Assembly: GCA_017549505.1 (NCBI GenBank)
Contig: JAFYUS010000030.1
Coordinates: forward strand, 88,625-152,624
Length of the DNA stretch: 64,000 nt
Direction of reading: 5' to 3'
Source of the DNA: Bacteroidales bacterium
GTDB taxonomy: Bacteria; Bacteroidota; Bacteroidia; Bacteroidales; UBA932
The notes beneath the pieces are model-generated. The model was not told where the DNA came from and did no database searches. It saw only the letters and a list, made by a program, of their open reading frames with translations. Position 1 is the first letter of the stretch. Each line of letters starts with the position of its first letter. The position numbers were made by a program, and so were the translations under genes. Positions 17,847-28,479 of the stretch are shown one piece after another.

Positions 17847-18977
17847 ATGAAATTCGTAAAGACACATAACGATCCGAACTCCGCTGCAAGATGCGGCGTC
17901 ATCACGACTGACCATGGTCAGATCGAGACCCCCATCTTCATGCCCGTAGGTACGGTAGGTTCGGTCAAAGGCATATATCATAGAGATCTCAAGGAAGATA
18001 TCAAGGCCGAGATCATCCTCGGCAATACATACCATCTTTATCTCCGTCCAGGACTTGATGTCCTCAAGGCAGCCGGCGGTCTCCATAAGTTCGAATCATG
18101 GGACAGACCTATCCTCACAGACAGCGGCGGATTCCAGGTCTTCAGTCTCAGCCCGATCCGTAAGCTGACCGAGGACGGATGCATCTTCCGTTCCCACATC
18201 GACGGATCGAAGCATATCTTCACCCCAGAAAACAACATGGACACCCAGCGTATCATCGGAGCCGACATCGTAATGGCTCTCGACGAGTGCTGCCCGGGTG
18301 ATGCCGACTACAAATATGCAAAGAAGTCTCTCGCACTTACACAGAGATGGCTGGAGCGCTGCGTGAAGCATTTCGATGAGACAGAGCCTCTCTACGGATA
18401 TTCCCAGGCACTTTTCCCTATCATACAGGGCTGCGTCTATCCTGACCTCCGCCGTGCGGCGGTCGATCACGCAGCCGCCCTCGATCGCGAAGGATACGCG
18501 ATCGGCGGCCTCGCAGTCGGCGAGCCGACTGAGCAGATGTATGAGATGCTCGAAGTTGTGTGCCCGATTCTGCCGGAGGATAAGCCACGTTACCTGATGG
18601 GAGTCGGAACGCCGGCGAACATTCTGGAAGGAATCGCACGCGGAGTGGACATGTTCGACTGCGTGATGCCTACCCGCAACGGCCGCAACGGCATGCTGTT
18701 CACATGGGACGGTATCATGAACATGAAGAACAAGAAGTGGGCGGACGACTTCTCTCCTCTCGATCCGAAAGGTACGTCGTTCGTGGACCATGCGTATTCG
18801 AAGGCATATGTGCGCCATCTGTTCGTGGCGGGTGAGATATTTGCAGGCCAGATCGCCAGCGAGCACAACCTTGCATTCTACCTTGATCTTGTGCGTGAGG
18901 CGCGCAAACATATCAAGGCCGGTGACTTCAAGCAGTGGAAGGACGAAACCGTACGCAGAATAACGACTAGACTTTAA
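17847..18977 (+). CDS. tgt: tRNA-guanine (queuine/preQ1) transglycosylase
   Basis: The enzyme swaps guanine 34 in GUN anticodons for the queuosine precursor preQ1. The 376-residue protein has the substrate-binding TDSGGFQVFSL segment, the GGLAVGEP loop and the nucleophile Asp271 in FDCVMPTRNGRNG. In E. coli a zinc site (CxCxxC...H) follows near residue 302; here the matching stretch is GTSFVDHAYSKAYVRHL, with no cysteines. I believe Bacteroides Tgt sequences also lack them, so this is probably a lineage trait rather than damage. A permease of the LptF/LptG family starts 5 nt downstream, so they are cotranscribed. Confidence 0.96.
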   Translation: MKFVKTHNDPNSAARCGVITTDHGQIETPIFMPVGTVGSVKGIYHRDLKEDIKAEIILGNTYHLYLRPGLDVLKAAGGLHKFESWDRPILTDSGGFQVFSLSPIRKLTEDGCIFRSHIDGSKHIFTPENNMDTQRIIGADIVMALDECCPGDADYKYAKKSLALTQRWLERCVKHFDETEPLYGYSQALFPIIQGCVYPDLRRAAVDHAAALDREGYAIGGLAVGEPTEQMYEMLEVVCPILPEDKPRYLMGVGTPANILEGIARGVDMFDCVMPTRNGRNGMLFTWDGIMNMKNKKWADDFSPLDPKGTSFVDHAYSKAYVRHLFVAGEIFAGQIASEHNLAFYLDLVREARKHIKAGDFKQWKDETVRRITTRL

Positions 18978-18982
18978 CGGAA

Positions 18983-20080
18983 ATGGAGTTTGATCTCAGA
19001 CCAAAGAAACTGGATGTATACATCGTCTCGAAGTTCATAACGACCTTCTTCGTGGCGTTGTTGCTGATCATCGGTATCGTGATCATCTTCGACGTCAGCG
19101 AGAAGATCGACAATTTCGTCGAGAAGGAAGCCCCTCTGCGGGCCATCATCTTTGACTATTATGTGAACTTCGTTCCGTACTTCATGAACATGTTCAGTCC
19201 TCTGTTCGTGTTCATTACAGTTATCTTCTTTACATCGAAGATGGCCTCCGATACGGAGATCGTGGCCATCCTCTCCTGCGGAGTAAGTTTCCACAGGATG
19301 ATGGTGCCGTACATATTCTCCGCGACCTTGATCGCTCTTTTCTCGTTGACTCTCAATCTGTTCGTGATTCCGGACTCCAATAAGGAACGAATAGCTTTCG
19401 AGACCAAATACGTCAAGGACAAGACAAAGAACGTCGGACGTAACGTCCATTATCAGATATCTCCGGGAGAATTCGCATTTGCAGAGTCGTTCAGTTCATG
19501 GAACAACACTGCCTACCGCTTCACCCTTGAGAGGATAGAAGACAACAAGCTCATTTCAAAGATTACCGCTGAGACAGCTGTCTACGATACGACCAGGAAC
19601 GTATGGCGTCTCAAGAAGTATTTCATCCGTGACTATAACGAAGACCTGACCGACAACATCCGCAGCGGAAAACAGCTTGACACTACCCTTGCCCTTTCCG
19701 TGAACGACTTCTACTGGAATCCCGAGTCTGTCGAAACATACAACTACTTCGAGCTGAACGAACTGATCGAACTACAGAAGATGAGGGGAGATGCCAATGT
19801 GAAATACTCGCTTATCCAGAAGAACAACCGTTTCGCACTTCCATTCTCCGCATTCATACTTACGATCATGGGAGTTGCCCTGTCATCGAAGAAGCGAAGG
19901 GGAGGAATCGGATGGAACATCGGAGCAGGTATCGCCCTGGCCTTCACCTACATCCTCTTCATGAAGTTCAGCGAGATGTTCGTCTATACAGACACCCTCT
20001 CGCCAGCACTGGCCCTATGGCTCCCGAACATAGTCTTCACATTCATCGCCATCGTACTCTACCGCCTTGCTCCGAAGTAG
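18983..20080 (+). CDS. LptF/LptG-family (YjgP/YjgQ) LPS export permease
   Basis: The 365-residue protein has the family layout: three N-terminal membrane helices (LDVYIVSKFITTFFVALLLI..., SPLFVFITVIFFTSKMAS), a periplasmic beta-jellyroll from about residue 110 to 270, and three C-terminal helices (LPFSAFILTIMGVALSSKKRRGGIG...). LptF and LptG form the inner-membrane part of the Lpt machine that pulls LPS out of the membrane. Since the protein fused to Fmt at 23402-25864 is the other family member, the two would make the LptFG pair; this one is more like LptG in length, but the split is uncertain. It is cotranscribed with tgt. Confidence 0.85.
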   Translation: MEFDLRPKKLDVYIVSKFITTFFVALLLIIGIVIIFDVSEKIDNFVEKEAPLRAIIFDYYVNFVPYFMNMFSPLFVFITVIFFTSKMASDTEIVAILSCGVSFHRMMVPYIFSATLIALFSLTLNLFVIPDSNKERIAFETKYVKDKTKNVGRNVHYQISPGEFAFAESFSSWNNTAYRFTLERIEDNKLISKITAETAVYDTTRNVWRLKKYFIRDYNEDLTDNIRSGKQLDTTLALSVNDFYWNPESVETYNYFELNELIELQKMRGDANVKYSLIQKNNRFALPFSAFILTIMGVALSSKKRRGGIGWNIGAGIALAFTYILFMKFSEMFVYTDTLSPALALWLPNIVFTFIAIVLYRLAPK

Positions 20081-22743: not shown

Positions 22744-23409
22744 TTAATCCATCATTATCAATGCTATGGACCTGTGGCTGAATTTCAGCTTGACATGGTC
22801 CTGAGAAGCCCTGTTAAGTGTAGCTTTCCACCAGTTGTCGAAGACAACCTCGTCTGTAGGCCATTCCAGACCCTCTGACTTTATCCGGAGGCTGTTGTCC
22901 GGACTGAAGATCGAAATCCTTCTGCCTTCCCCGCAGTCCACCTCACATGTGTCCGTCACTGCGAAGATGGTAGCATGGTCTGAAACCATCTCCACATTGA
23001 TCCCTCTGCCTTCCAGATCGTATGTCCTGGCATATTCCATCAGCAGGGATATGTTGCCGATTGTGTGGTCCTCTCTTTCTCCGGTCGCTCCGAGGATGTA
23101 GATCTGAGATATGTCTTCTACATTTTCAAGGGCCCATCTGAAGGCCTTTGTCTGGTCATTATGCTCCTGTTCGTCGATCTGGACGATTATGTCGCTGTGC
23201 TTCTTGCGAAGCGACGGCGACAGCGAGTCCATATCACCGACCACCACATCAGGAAGCCTCTTTTCTCCGAAAATCGCTTCGCTGGCGCGGATGAATTTCT
23301 GAAGCGCTCCGTCGCAGCAGATGATGAAATCTGCCGTACGGACCAGATAGCGTGGATAGTCCGATTTCGGAAACCTTCCGTCGCAGATTATGACAACTGT
23401 CTTAAGCAT
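22744..23409 (-). CDS. Thiamine pyrophosphokinase
   Basis: The 221-residue protein matches thiamine diphosphokinase: an N-terminal CDGALQKF and VVGDMDSLS motif (metal and ATP binding), then EHNDQTKAFRWAL and LGATGEREDHTIGN, then a C-terminal beta-sandwich. It makes thiamine diphosphate from thiamine and ATP in the cytoplasm. Its ATG overlaps the end of the lptF-fmt fusion gene by 8 nt, so it is translated from the alaS/lptF-fmt transcript. Length is typical. Confidence 0.92.
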   Translation of the reverse strand: MLKTVVIICDGRFPKSDYPRYLVRTADFIICCDGALQKFIRASEAIFGEKRLPDVVVGDMDSLSPSLRKKHSDIIVQIDEQEHNDQTKAFRWALENVEDISQIYILGATGEREDHTIGNISLLMEYARTYDLEGRGINVEMVSDHATIFAVTDTCEVDCGEGRRISIFSPDNSLRIKSEGLEWPTDEVVFDNWWKATLNRASQDHVKLKFSHRSIALIMMD

Positions 23410-25864
23410 GCTTTCCTGTTATCTGTGATGATGTTCCCTGAGTGGTTCCGTATGATTCCGGCTCTCTGAATCCGATGAGGAAATCCTTCACGGCCATCTT
23501 CTTCTTGCCTGCCAGCTGGAGCTCGGTAACCGAGATCGCGCCGTCGGCTGTCGCGACGGCGAGATAAGTCTTTCCATCGGAAAGCACCGTACCCGGTGCC
23601 GCACTCTCAAGCCCCGAAGCAGAAAGCATTGCAGCATATTCCTCTCCGGTAACCTTGAGGGTCCTGTATATCTTCATCTGAAGGACCTTGTCGTCCTTTG
23701 TGAGTTCTGTGAATGCAGCAGGATATGGACTCAGACCGCGGATAAGGTTGTAGATGTCCTTGGTCTTGCCGTTCCAGTCTATGTGGCAGAGCTCGCGGGT
23801 TATCTTCGGTGCAGGTCTGAGGATCTCAGATCCCTGGATGAAACTTCTCTGTACGCGGAGCTCCACATTGTTCTCTATGATTGCCTCGACTGTATTGACA
23901 ACGAGTTTCGAACCGAGATCCATGAGCTTGTCGTGTACTTCTCCTACAGTTTCATCAGGTTCGATGCGGCAGTCATATCTGTACATGATGCCGCCGGTGT
24001 CCATACCATCGTCGATCATGAATGTCGTCACACCCGTAGTCTTGTCTCCGTTGATCACGGCCCAGTTGATCGGTGCTGCACCGCGGTACTGAGGGAGGAG
24101 GGCGGCGTGGAGGTTGAATGTGCCGAGTTTCGGCATTGACCATACGACCTTCGGAAGCATTCGGAATGCCACGACCACGAACAGGTCTGCCTTCCATGCC
24201 TTCAGAGCTTCAAGGAACTCAGGATCCTTGAGCGAAAGCGGCTGAAGCACAGGGATGTTGTGTTCCACAGCATACTTCTTTACGGCGCTTTCGTTGACCT
24301 TGAGTCCTCGGCCGCTCGCCTTGTCGGCTACTGTCACCACTCCTACGATGTTATATCCGTTCTTTATGAGTTCGTCCAGAGGAGCCACCGCGAATTCCGG
24401 CGTACCCATGTAGACGATTCTTGTCTTCTTGAACATGTCCATGATCTTGGTCTTTATTTTTCTGAATCCGCTCTTTATCGAATCCAGGTTGAAGAATGTC
24501 GAGTCGTTGATTGCCTTCCACGAAAGGAAGAGTCCGGTAGGGAAGAGCACGTAGCTGGAGAAGAATACTCCGAAGACAGGTCCTACAGCTCCGTCTCTTG
24601 CCAGTTTGGTTCCGGCAATGTCGATCACATAGTACGCTACAAAGAAGAGTACGGATATGATCGCCGAGGCTCCAAGTCCTCCTTTTCGGATGATAGCTCC
24701 CAGAGGCGCACCGATGAAGAAGAAGATAAAGCAGGCGATTGCCAGTGCAAACTTCTTATAGATCTCGATGTCGATAAGCCTGAGGATATAAGTGTGGTGA
24801 TATCTTTCCCTAGAATATGTGTTCAGTGTGTTTTCCAGCTCTTCTGCATGGGTCCTGGCCTTTCTTGCTCCTTCGAGTTCCTTCTCCAGAGTCTTCCACT
24901 TGTTGAGGCCCTCAGGTACGAAAGGAGTTGTCCTTACAGTCTTGGATGCTGTATCCAGCTGTGAATTGTATCTCAATGACCTTGAATTTCCCAGAGATGC
25001 AATGTTCTTTTTCTTTCCCTCGGCATTTATGGTACCGATGGAATCCTCGCTTTCATGCAGCTGCTTGAGATTCATTGACTTGACCTGGTCGCCGAACCTG
25101 CTGGAATCGGATTTCTGGAACGAGTAGTTTTCCAGAGGGATGATCAGTTCCTGTCTTTTGAAGTCGATCTTCTGGAACTGAAGGGTTGTGTCACGATATT
25201 TTCTGTTGTTGGTCTCCTCGTAGTTGGAACCGCTGAACATGATGAATGAAAGGTATGACTTGTCCTTTGACATCTTCATCATGGCTGAATCTGCAAGGGT
25301 AAGGCTTGTGTTGCCCTTGTTCTTCGTGTGGTTGTATACCATGACGCCGTGCATTATGCCGGTCTCGTCATTTCTTTCCTCCACACGGAGCATGTATCCT
25401 TCGATACCGTTGTAGAAAGTCTTGGTCGGAATCTTGATCTCGTCCTTTGTCTTTCCGATGTCTGCCCTGAGCTGATAGATCTTGTTGTATGCTACCGGAA
25501 TCAGGTCGTTCGATACGAAGAAGGCTCCGACACTGATGCCCAGACATACGACAGCAAGAGGAATCATCATTCTCTGAAGGGAGATACCTGCAGCCTTGAC
25601 GGCCAGAAGCTCATTGTTCTCTCCCAGCTGTCCCATGGTCATCATGGCGGACAGAAGGGTGGACAAAGGAAGGGACAGGGGAAGCATGGTGATGCAACCC
25701 CAGCCTAGGAATTCCATTATGACTTTGAAACTCAGACCCTTACCGACGAGTTCGTCGATATAGAGCCAGAGAAACTGCATCATCAGGATGAATACGACGA
25801 CCAGCAGGATCGCTACAAACGGTCCTATGAACGACTTCAATATGAACTGGTCTAACTTCTTCAT
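23402..25864 (-). CDS. LptF/LptG-family permease fused to methionyl-tRNA formyltransferase
   Basis: One uninterrupted frame of 820 residues joins two complete proteins. Residues 1 to about 474 are an LptF-type LPS export permease: three N-terminal helices ([24 protein letters not shown]..., LPLSLPLSTLLSAMMTMGQLGENNE), a periplasmic domain of about 270 residues with a coiled-coil-like part, and three C-terminal helices. Residues about 478-820 are Fmt: IVYMGTPEFAV, then Asn and His in FNLHAALLPQYRGAAPINWA and Asp in DDGMDTGG, the formyl-transfer residues, and a C-terminal OB-like domain. Fmt formylates initiator Met-tRNA. Two Met codons (475 and 477) lie at the junction and could start a free Fmt. 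Both halves would face the cytoplasm at the joint. The ATG overlaps the alaS stop (TAATG). Confidence 0.9.
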   Translation of the reverse strand: MKKLDQFILKSFIGPFVAILLVVVFILMMQFLWLYIDELVGKGLSFKVIMEFLGWGCITMLPLSLPLSTLLSAMMTMGQLGENNELLAVKAAGISLQRMMIPLAVVCLGISVGAFFVSNDLIPVAYNKIYQLRADIGKTKDEIKIPTKTFYNGIEGYMLRVEERNDETGIMHGVMVYNHTKNKGNTSLTLADSAMMKMSKDKSYLSFIMFSGSNYEETNNRKYRDTTLQFQKIDFKRQELIIPLENYSFQKSDSSRFGDQVKSMNLKQLHESEDSIGTINAEGKKKNIASLGNSRSLRYNSQLDTASKTVRTTPFVPEGLNKWKTLEKELEGARKARTHAEELENTLNTYSRERYHHTYILRLIDIEIYKKFALAIACFIFFFIGAPLGAIIRKGGLGASAIISVLFFVAYYVIDIAGTKLARDGAVGPVFGVFFSSYVLFPTGLFLSWKAINDSTFFNLDSIKSGFRKIKTKIMDMFKKTRIVYMGTPEFAVAPLDELIKNGYNIVGVVTVADKASGRGLKVNESAVKKYAVEHNIPVLQPLSLKDPEFLEALKAWKADLFVVVAFRMLPKVVWSMPKLGTFNLHAALLPQYRGAAPINWAVINGDKTTGVTTFMIDDGMDTGGIMYRYDCRIEPDETVGEVHDKLMDLGSKLVVNTVEAIIENNVELRVQRSFIQGSEILRPAPKITRELCHIDWNGKTKDIYNLIRGLSPYPAAFTELTKDDKVLQMKIYRTLKVTGEEYAAMLSASGLESAAPGTVLSDGKTYLAVATADGAISVTELQLAGKKKMAVKDFLIGFREPESYGTTQGTSSQITGKHA

Positions 25865-28479
25865 TATGCAGTTGCGAGTTCAACCAATCTGGTTATTGCT
25901 GCGGAAAGACCGCCAAGGTCCTTTCCGCCGGCGGTAGCCAGACCTGGCTGTCCGCCGCCGCCGCCCATGATGAGCTTTGCAGCCTCACGAACGTCTGCTC
26001 CTGCATTCTTTCCGCCCTTCACAAGGTCCTCTGAGTACATGACGAGAAGCTGTGGCTTGCCTGCAAATTCGAAGGCAGCGACGATGGCGAACTTCTCTGT
26101 CTCCTTCTGGAGCATGAAGGCAGCGTTCTTGAGCATTGCAGGATCCATGCTGTAGTCCACGACTACGAGCTTTATGCCGTTCTGCTCCTTTGCAACTTCC
26201 TTGAAGCTGTTCTTGAGGGTAATGGTCTTCTCCTTTACGATCTCATCTATCTGCTTCTTGTAAGCCTCGTTCTCATCAACCATCTTCTGGATTGCAGCTG
26301 CAAGGTCAGGAGCGTTGTTGAAGAATGCCTTTGCGATTCGGAGGGATGTTTCCATTCCGTCCACGATGATTTCTGCATATACGCCGGTAGTTGCCTCGAT
26401 GCGTCGTACTCCTGCTGCGATTGCTGACTCGGCTGTGATCTTGAAGAATCCGATCTGGCCGGTAGCGGCAGCATGTGTACCTCCACAGAGCTCGCATGAC
26501 TGTCCGAACTTAACTACGCGTACCTTGTCGCCGTACTTCTCTCCGAAGAGTGCCATGGCGCCCATCTCCTGAGCTTCTTCCATGGTTGCGTTCCTGTTTT
26601 CATCGAGAGGGTAGTTCGCTCTGATGAGTGCGTTGACGCGCTTCTCGACTGCGTCGATCTGCTCGTCGGTGAGTTTCTCGAAGTGCGAGAAGTCGAAGCG
26701 GAAATATTTGTCACATACATATGAACCCTTCTGCTCCACATGTGTTCCGAGGATCTCGCGGAGCGCCTGGTGAAGGAGGTGGGTTGCGGTATGGTTGTTC
26801 TCGATCTGTTTTCTTCTTTCAGTATCTACATGGAGACTGAAGCTCTCAGTGCAGTCTGCAGGGATGCGCTCTGCAACGTGGATGGTGAGGTTGTTCTCCT
26901 TGATTGTGTTGACGATGCTGATCTTCTCACCGCTCTCTGAAAGGATATATCCTGTATCACCTACCTGTCCTCCCATCTCTGCGTAGAAAGGAGTACGCTC
27001 GAACACGAGCTGGTACATTGTCTTGTTCTTCGCCTTTACGGTACGATGACGTGTGAGCTGTACGCCTTCGAGTTCAGTGCAGTCATATCCGAGGAACTCG
27101 ATGTTGTCGCAGTGTGCGAATTCTACCCAGTCGCCTGATTCGATTGCAGTTGCGTTACGTGCCCTGTCCTTCTGCTTCTGGAGCTCTACCTGGAATCCTT
27201 CGAGGTCGATCTTGTATCCCTTCTCTGAAGCGATGAGCTCGGAAAGGTCGATAGGGAAGCCGAATGTGTCGTAAAGTACGAATGCATCCTCTCCTGAGAT
27301 CACCTTTGTCTCTGAAGACTTCGCCATGATGTTGTCCATCAGGCGGATACCTCTGTCAAGAGTGCGGAGGAAAGCCATCTCCTCTTCCTTGATGACGCGC
27401 TCGATGAGGGTCTGCTGCTTTACGATCTCAGGATAGAACTCTCCCATGTCGTCCACGAGCTGTCCTACCAGACGGCAGAGGAAAGGCTCATTGAATCCGA
27501 GGAATGTATATCCGTAACGGACTGCACGACGGAGGATTCGACGGATCACATATCCTGCCTTTACATTCGAAGGCAGCTGGCCGTCTGCAATCGAGAAGCT
27601 GATTGCACGGATGTGGTCAGCGATCACACGCATGGCTACATCCTCTTCTGTAGTGACTCCGTACTTGTGTCCTGAAAGTTCCTCGATCTTTGAGATCATT
27701 CCTGTGAATACGTCTGTGTCATAGTTGGACTGCTTGCCCTGGAGAGCCATGCAGAGACGTTCGAATCCCATACCTGTGTCGACGTTCTTGTTAGGAAGGA
27801 GCTCGAGTTCTCCGTTTGCCTTGCGGTTGTACTGCATGAACACGTTGTTCCAGATCTCGATCACGAGATGGTGGTCCTTGTTCACGAGTGATGCTCCCGG
27901 AACGGCTGCCCTTTCCTCGTCGCTGCGGAGGTCGATGTGGATCTCCGAGCATGGTCCGCAAGGACCTGTATCGCCCATTTCCCAGAAGTTGTCCTTCTTG
28001 TTTCCGAGGAGGATGCGGTCTTCAGGAAGATGTCTCTTCCATGCTTCCATGGCCTCGACGTCAAGCTGTGTGCCGTCTGCCTCAGAGCCCTCGAACACTG
28101 TAGCATAAAGTCTGTCCTTATCGAGCTTGTAAACCTCTGTGAGGAGTTCCCATGCCCAGTCGATGGCCTCGTTCTTGAAATAGTCGCCGAAGCTCCAGTT
28201 TCCGAGCATCTCGAACATTGTGTGGTGGTATGTATCGCGTCCGACCTCTTCAAGGTCGTTATGTTTTCCGCTTACGCGGAGACATTTCTGACTGTCTGCT
28301 ACCCTCTTCCATTTTGCAGGGCTGTTTCCGAGGAACCAGTCCTTGAACTGATTCATTCCGGCATTGGTGAACATAAGTGTGGGGTCGTTCTTCACGACCA
28401 TAGGTGCCGATGGCACGATCTGGTGACCCTTCGAAGCGAAGAAGTCCAGAAATGCTTTTCTGATTTCTTTGGAAGTCAT
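25864..28479 (-). CDS. alaS: Alanyl-tRNA synthetase
   Basis: The 871-residue protein has the class II catalytic domain at its start ([19 protein letters not shown], then [15 protein letters not shown]), the editing domain zinc ligands in [11 protein letters not shown] and CELCGGTHA, and a C-terminal Gly-rich C-Ala domain ([16 protein letters not shown]). It charges tRNA-Ala and removes wrongly attached Ser and Gly. It heads a probable operon with the lptF-fmt fusion and thiamine pyrophosphokinase, joined by overlapping stop/start codons, so formylation of initiator tRNA and alanine charging are expressed together. Confidence 0.97.

Follow-up and report, generated by a model that had tools for sequence, protein, structure and literature searches.

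A stretch of 64,000 nucleotides from a Bacteroidales bacterium (assembly GCA_017549505.1, contig JAFYUS010000030.1, positions 88,625 to 152,624), referred to here in its full length as the window, holds a single open reading frame (ORF) in which an LptF-type permease of the lipopolysaccharide (LPS) exporter is joined to methionyl-tRNA formyltransferase (Fmt). This lptF-fmt fusion gene (23402..25864, minus strand) opens with ATG and runs through 820 amino acids (aa) with zero internal stops, with profile matches to both halves: Pfam places LptF_LptG at residues 7-450, Formyl_trans_N at 482-658 and Formyl_trans_C at 687-799. The original prediction, made from the letters of the window, of one 820-residue frame in which a complete LptF-type permease is joined to a complete Fmt was borne out. 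Its product is probably one bifunctional inner-membrane chain with Fmt anchored via the LptF tail, which would have arisen by fusion within an operon and would have been kept by a clade of these bacteria.

The fused architecture is not confined to the window. Among 56 genomes of its genus, 51 were fused, three were cut by contig ends, two had no fmt match and none had a free fmt, the two states being judged mostly by frame length, with the LptF match in the same frame checked for the fetched loci. These genomes came in two sets: in the first, own genome included, an Fmt-containing frame of 791-862 aa was present in 33 of 37, G024 had a fused frame of only 601 aa because its lptF part is frame-broken, two were cut at contig ends and one was without a match, while 17 of the 19 further genomes of the second set were fused, one was cut and one (G367) gave no match. 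All 80 kept loci were also fused, but as these are the best 80 of 203 relatives of the fused query, they do not represent a frequency; ten Candidatus Cryptobacteroides species, a genus placed in Bacteroidales by NCBI, were among their carriers. Among the matches listed for 34 more genomes of the genus, 32 had frame lengths of 803-874 aa; the other two measured 637 aa and 363 aa, the latter beginning at a contig start. In 24 other genera of the family, which we take to be the one named UBA932 in GTDB, 39 genomes gave 14 fusion-size frames, 23 frames of free size (319-389 aa), one cut locus and one without a match; some intermediate family frames were placed in neither class, among them that of 293 aa in G235, which lacks the Fmt start, and that of 684 aa in G127. 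Fused rows outside the window genus belonged to genera g26, g27, g29, g30, g39, g40, g41 and g47, with both states present in g26 and g47, and the three Pfam domains were found in each of seven fused proteins from seven genera. In the order beyond the family, no frame above 392 aa occurred among the matches listed, where 82 lower rows had been chosen by E-value and 80 re-examined (G660 and G664 were left out). Likewise, no fusion-size frame was present among the matches listed for the phylum, in which the largest Fmt frames, of 523 aa (G732:C77) and 457 aa (G755:C12), are too short for an LptF fusion.

In regard to the C-terminal half, its score of 239.7 bits passed the equivalog cut-off of 201.5 of the NCBIfam model TIGR00460 (fmt). 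The catalytic domain (residues 482-658, 23891..24421, minus strand) matched PF00551 with 127 bits and is followed by the C-terminal domain PF02911 (residues 687-799, 23468..23806, minus strand). Formyl transfer in this enzyme relies on the catalytic Asn, His and Asp of the N-x-H ... D-T-G signature. The signature (NLHAALLPQYRGAAP, MDTG) was found in the window protein, and the three residues, whose presence had been predicted, were invariant in all 28 fused rows of a 54-row alignment, as was the GRG loop, which binds tRNA. Furthermore, a deformylase was detected in all 16 genomes tested, which is circumstantial for formylation of Met-tRNA. The fused Fmt half is named here as a predicted formylase of Met-tRNA(fMet). 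No second fmt, a free copy of which the original prediction had suggested looking for, was found in the own assembly (78% complete) or in the near-complete relatives G082, G101, G118 and G132, which gave one match each (E<=0.001) and of which G082 and G101 are 100% complete. A separate observation concerns the Ser of the HxSLLP motif at residue 588 (24101-24103), a conserved position near the active site: it is Ser in 26 of 26 free rows and Ala in 18 of 28 fused rows, so that the change tracks part of the fused clade.

The N-terminal half (residues 7-450 by Pfam, 24515..25846, minus strand) aligned to PF03739 over model positions 2-353 of 353 with 231 bits, and is about 90 residues longer than this 353-position model. 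It fits the LptF_YjgP model better (152.8 bits) than that of LptG (94.6 bits), and as its score falls under the LptF equivalog cut-off of 230 (TIGR04407), "LptF-type permease" is the safe name. A second LptF/LptG-type permease (PF03739), unfused and LptG-like, is encoded at 18983..20080 on the plus strand, with 153.8 bits for the LptG model (cut-off 240) and 126.9 for LptF, both below the cut-offs. Its gene directly follows tgt (17847-20080 for the two, plus strand), and the same permease is the expected partner of the fused LptF. Genes of the LptG/F family were tried as candidates for a queuosine-precursor transporter, with no complementation (PMC11130926).

The two halves meet at residues 452-480 (24425..24511, minus strand), where the LptF cytosolic tail passes into Fmt. 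This basic, amphipathic stretch has a hydrophobic moment of 0.61, the 99.5th percentile of the protein, and a helix at 460-478 is predicted by the structural model with low confidence. In LptB2FG, the C-terminus of LptF is cytoplasmic; the cytoplasmic end proposed for the fused LptF is plausible, since it fits both this topology and the basic tail. Among sequences passing the anchor pattern, the median distance from the last hydrophobic stretch to the Met of the Fmt motif MGTPEF was 39 residues in fused proteins (69 distinct linkers); for the tails of unfused LptF the median was 37 residues (n=15), with similar charge. Because the fused linkers are about as long as the unfused tails, Fmt begins about where LptF ends and, judged by its length, the linker is not new sequence. 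According to the mechanism proposed here, residues 1 to ~450 would serve as the LptF-type subunit within LptB2FG, the LPS exporter; the cytoplasmic C-terminus of this subunit, a basic amphipathic tail of some 30-40 residues, would lead straight into Fmt, and the membrane-anchored enzyme would formylate Met-tRNA(fMet) using 10-formyltetrahydrofolate (10-formyl-THF). From the sequences, we infer translation as a single chain, activity of both fused halves, the topology and the membrane position; Fmt would thus be held next to the LPS exporter, with the tethering presumably tolerated rather than required. Both halves are under purifying selection, with median ratios of nonsynonymous to synonymous substitution rates (dN/dS) of 0.048 for LptF, 0.028 for Fmt N, 0.082 for Fmt C and 0.10 for the linker, from pairs that are not independent and with dS near saturation.

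Several other explanations can be considered for such a frame. An assembly or binning artefact, for instance a single-base error at the joint, could be suspected as the named carriers are metagenome-assembled genomes. However, the same architecture is present in many independent assemblies and in several genera, with divergent linkers, and because of this recurrence (51 of 56 genomes of the genus) assembly error and chance were rejected; an artefact is so improbable that the in-frame fusion can be regarded as real. It is also conceivable that the Fmt half was turned into a sugar formyltransferase acting on LPS together with the exporter. This candidate was rejected on the scores for the ArnA/sugar formyltransferase models NF005998 (138.8 against a cut-off of 777) and NF005755 (37.4 against 238), and we consider it very improbable next to the Fmt match above. 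More weight, while still on the unlikely side, can be given to the possibility that the fused frame is translated, but that much Fmt is made free from a codon in the linker, Met475 in the window, so that the fusion is partly nominal. The Met475 and Met477 codons (24440..24442 and 24434..24436, minus strand), highlighted in the original prediction as possible internal starts, are both present. Met475, a possible relic start of a free fmt, is retained by 59 of the 81 sequences aligned for the genus, while column 477 is poorly conserved, with K as the commonest residue (17/81) and M outside the four commonest. In addition, 59 of the 109 distinct linkers carry an ATG 11 codons ahead of the MGTPEF Met, and the starts of several free fmt genes lie ~8-14 codons upstream of this Met. 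On the other hand, 16 of the 109 linkers, from several genera, have no ATG, GTG or TTG within 20 codons; internal initiation is therefore not conserved, and it was rejected as a general answer and is retained as a minor alternative for individual species. The next Met (486) sits in the first Fmt strand of the predicted model (482-487), and synonymous diversity has no dip at the joint (0.91 around it and 1.16 after it) in comparison with 0.82 at the true start, which is a weak test given 0.86-0.88 in other windows. In species devoid of a linker start codon, judging by their linkers, Fmt must come from the full-length chain, barring the use of a rare start codon or cleavage by a protease.

The last case, in which the full chain is cut by a protease in the linker and the halves work apart, is a shade less probable than internal initiation. 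The linker is basic, and among the four stretches compared it shows the weakest constraint (median dN/dS 0.10 from 34 pairs). Nevertheless, no shared cut-site motif was noticed, without a dedicated cleavage-site search, and linkers of different genera are alike in length and charge, less so in sequence. Taken together, a number of observations speak against a single anchored chain. Candidate start codons (ATG, GTG or TTG within 20 codons) are held by 93 of the 109 distinct linkers, which makes internal starts possible in the majority of species, including that of the window, and proteolytic release of Fmt is compatible with the sequence. The predicted model is of moderate confidence (mean predicted local distance difference test score, pLDDT, of 72; predicted template modelling score, pTM, of 0.44), with the relative placement of the halves not fixed. 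Free genes are nested among fused ones (g36, g43 and two g26 genomes), hence the fusion is not indispensable. Finally, G367, a 95% complete genome of the same genus, gave no fmt match at 1e-40, so fmt can be missed or missing.

As to how the bifunctional chain could have originated, the order M23 peptidases (divergent), alaS, lptF, fmt and thiamine diphosphokinase is common, though not universal, in fused and unfused loci. In the window, alaS (25864..28479, minus strand; TIGR00344, 882 bits) is the upstream operon partner and overlaps the fusion ORF by one base, 25864, which is common to both frames in TAATG, in agreement with the overlap described earlier. The thiamine diphosphokinase gene (22744..23409, minus strand), located downstream in many relatives too, overlaps the 3' end of the fusion by 8 bases, and there is no tRNA gene in the window. 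The joining of translation and envelope genes that had been attributed to this locus holds as an operon order, but it is older than the fusion, as alaS-lptF-fmt is found in unfused sister genera too. In unfused relatives with lptF in reach, lptF and fmt shared a strand, with lptF directly upstream; within the family, the two were in different frames in 19 of 19 such pairs, and in many of them fmt starts at or before the lptF stop, while some other family members had no lptF within the 1.5 kb fetched. Since lptF adjoins fmt, out of frame and behind alaS, in the unfused sister genera, this gene order indicates that the fusion came about in place, by the merger of two frames. The starting state would be an alaS-lptF-fmt operon with lptF and fmt adjoining or overlapping out of frame, in which small insertions and deletions in the lptF tail would cause loss of the stop and bring fmt in frame. 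Within genus g47, good alignment of fused G119 to free G083 extends over both sides of the joint; what separates the two are lptF-tail indels that sum to a frame change and abolish the stop. In g36 and g43 (L049, L039, L042, L165), the fmt frame differs from that of lptF and overlaps it, the fmt Met being inside the lptF tail. This overlap, located within what is elsewhere the linker, looks like a frameshift fission of a fused gene or like a pre-fusion intermediate, and either direction would fit. Another structure was seen in G104 of genus g26 (L153/L187), where the lptF that precedes a free fmt is split over two frames, either a broken gene or an assembly error.

Trees built from matches covering >60% of the query (42 AlaS, 51 LptF and 54 Fmt of 54 loci; G119, G104 and G086 are missing from the AlaS tree because of this filter) show that the state changed more than once. 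In the AlaS tree, all 26 fused rows fall, together with three free ones, within a 29-row clade (100/98); this tree requires two changes of state, of which the starred branches alone force only one. The LptF+Fmt tree, from which the long-branch row G050 was dropped and in which 8 of the 19 rows of the window genus were retained, forces at least three changes, with four in a larger quick tree. One all-fused clade, and with it a single origin without loss, was rejected by the approximately unbiased test for both AlaS (p-AU 0.0037) and LptF+Fmt (p-AU 3.6e-4, or 2.5e-5 without G119), for groups named after the trees were seen, against which the test's own note warns. As both trees reject one fused clade, the fusion state changed repeatedly, most simply with the g47 fusion separate from the main clade. 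The main clade, in turn, may have seen additional fusions or else reversals, gain and loss being indistinguishable there.

Repeated origin could stem from adjacency alone, since a small indel suffices, or it could show a benefit, such as a fixed stoichiometry or a link between initiation and the envelope. Under the latter, Fmt at the inner face of the exporter would link formyl-Met-tRNA supply, 10-formyl-THF and initiation status to outer-membrane building, and the repeated origin would reflect selection for this link and not only adjacency; we regard such functional coupling as a speculative idea with a rather low chance of being correct. If the chain is used whole, a widespread and normally soluble enzyme of translation initiation would be membrane-anchored throughout a large clade of uncultured gut Bacteroidales. 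This would offer a natural experiment on the need for a freely diffusing enzyme in initiator-tRNA formylation, and on what LptB2FG tolerates at the LptF C-terminus, and it would show operon neighbours becoming one protein, apparently more than once. For annotation, it is a warning that a single product name hides one of two housekeeping functions. While the parents LptF and Fmt are well known, the composite of two housekeeping proteins, kept in a large clade, appears new to us; no report of an LptF-Fmt fusion was found in the open-access literature searched, with UniProt/InterPro, where an entry may exist, preprints and subscription papers lying outside that search.

Compared with LptF of LptB2FG (PF03739; TIGR04407), the fusion likewise has a permease part of full length in which the EN.EL motif is conserved, and its genome also encodes one separate LptG-like paralogue, but it adds a C-terminal enzyme domain, about 90 residues over the Pfam model and a TIGR04407 score under the cut-off. 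With Fmt (TIGR00460; 1FMT/2FMT) it shares both Fmt domains, the active-site residues, the tRNA loop and the fold, and the fused fmt is the sole copy found in its own assembly. However, Fmt is a free protein of ~310-350 residues in most other Bacteroidales families sampled, whereas in the fusion it makes up the C-terminal portion of what is predicted to be a membrane protein. A further parallel is ArnA, in which a formyltransferase of the same superfamily is also found in a natural fusion connected with LPS. ArnA is soluble and carries its formylase, for which the substrate is a nucleotide sugar, at the N-terminus; the partner joined to the formyltransferase differs as well, being a dehydrogenase in ArnA and an LptF-type permease here.
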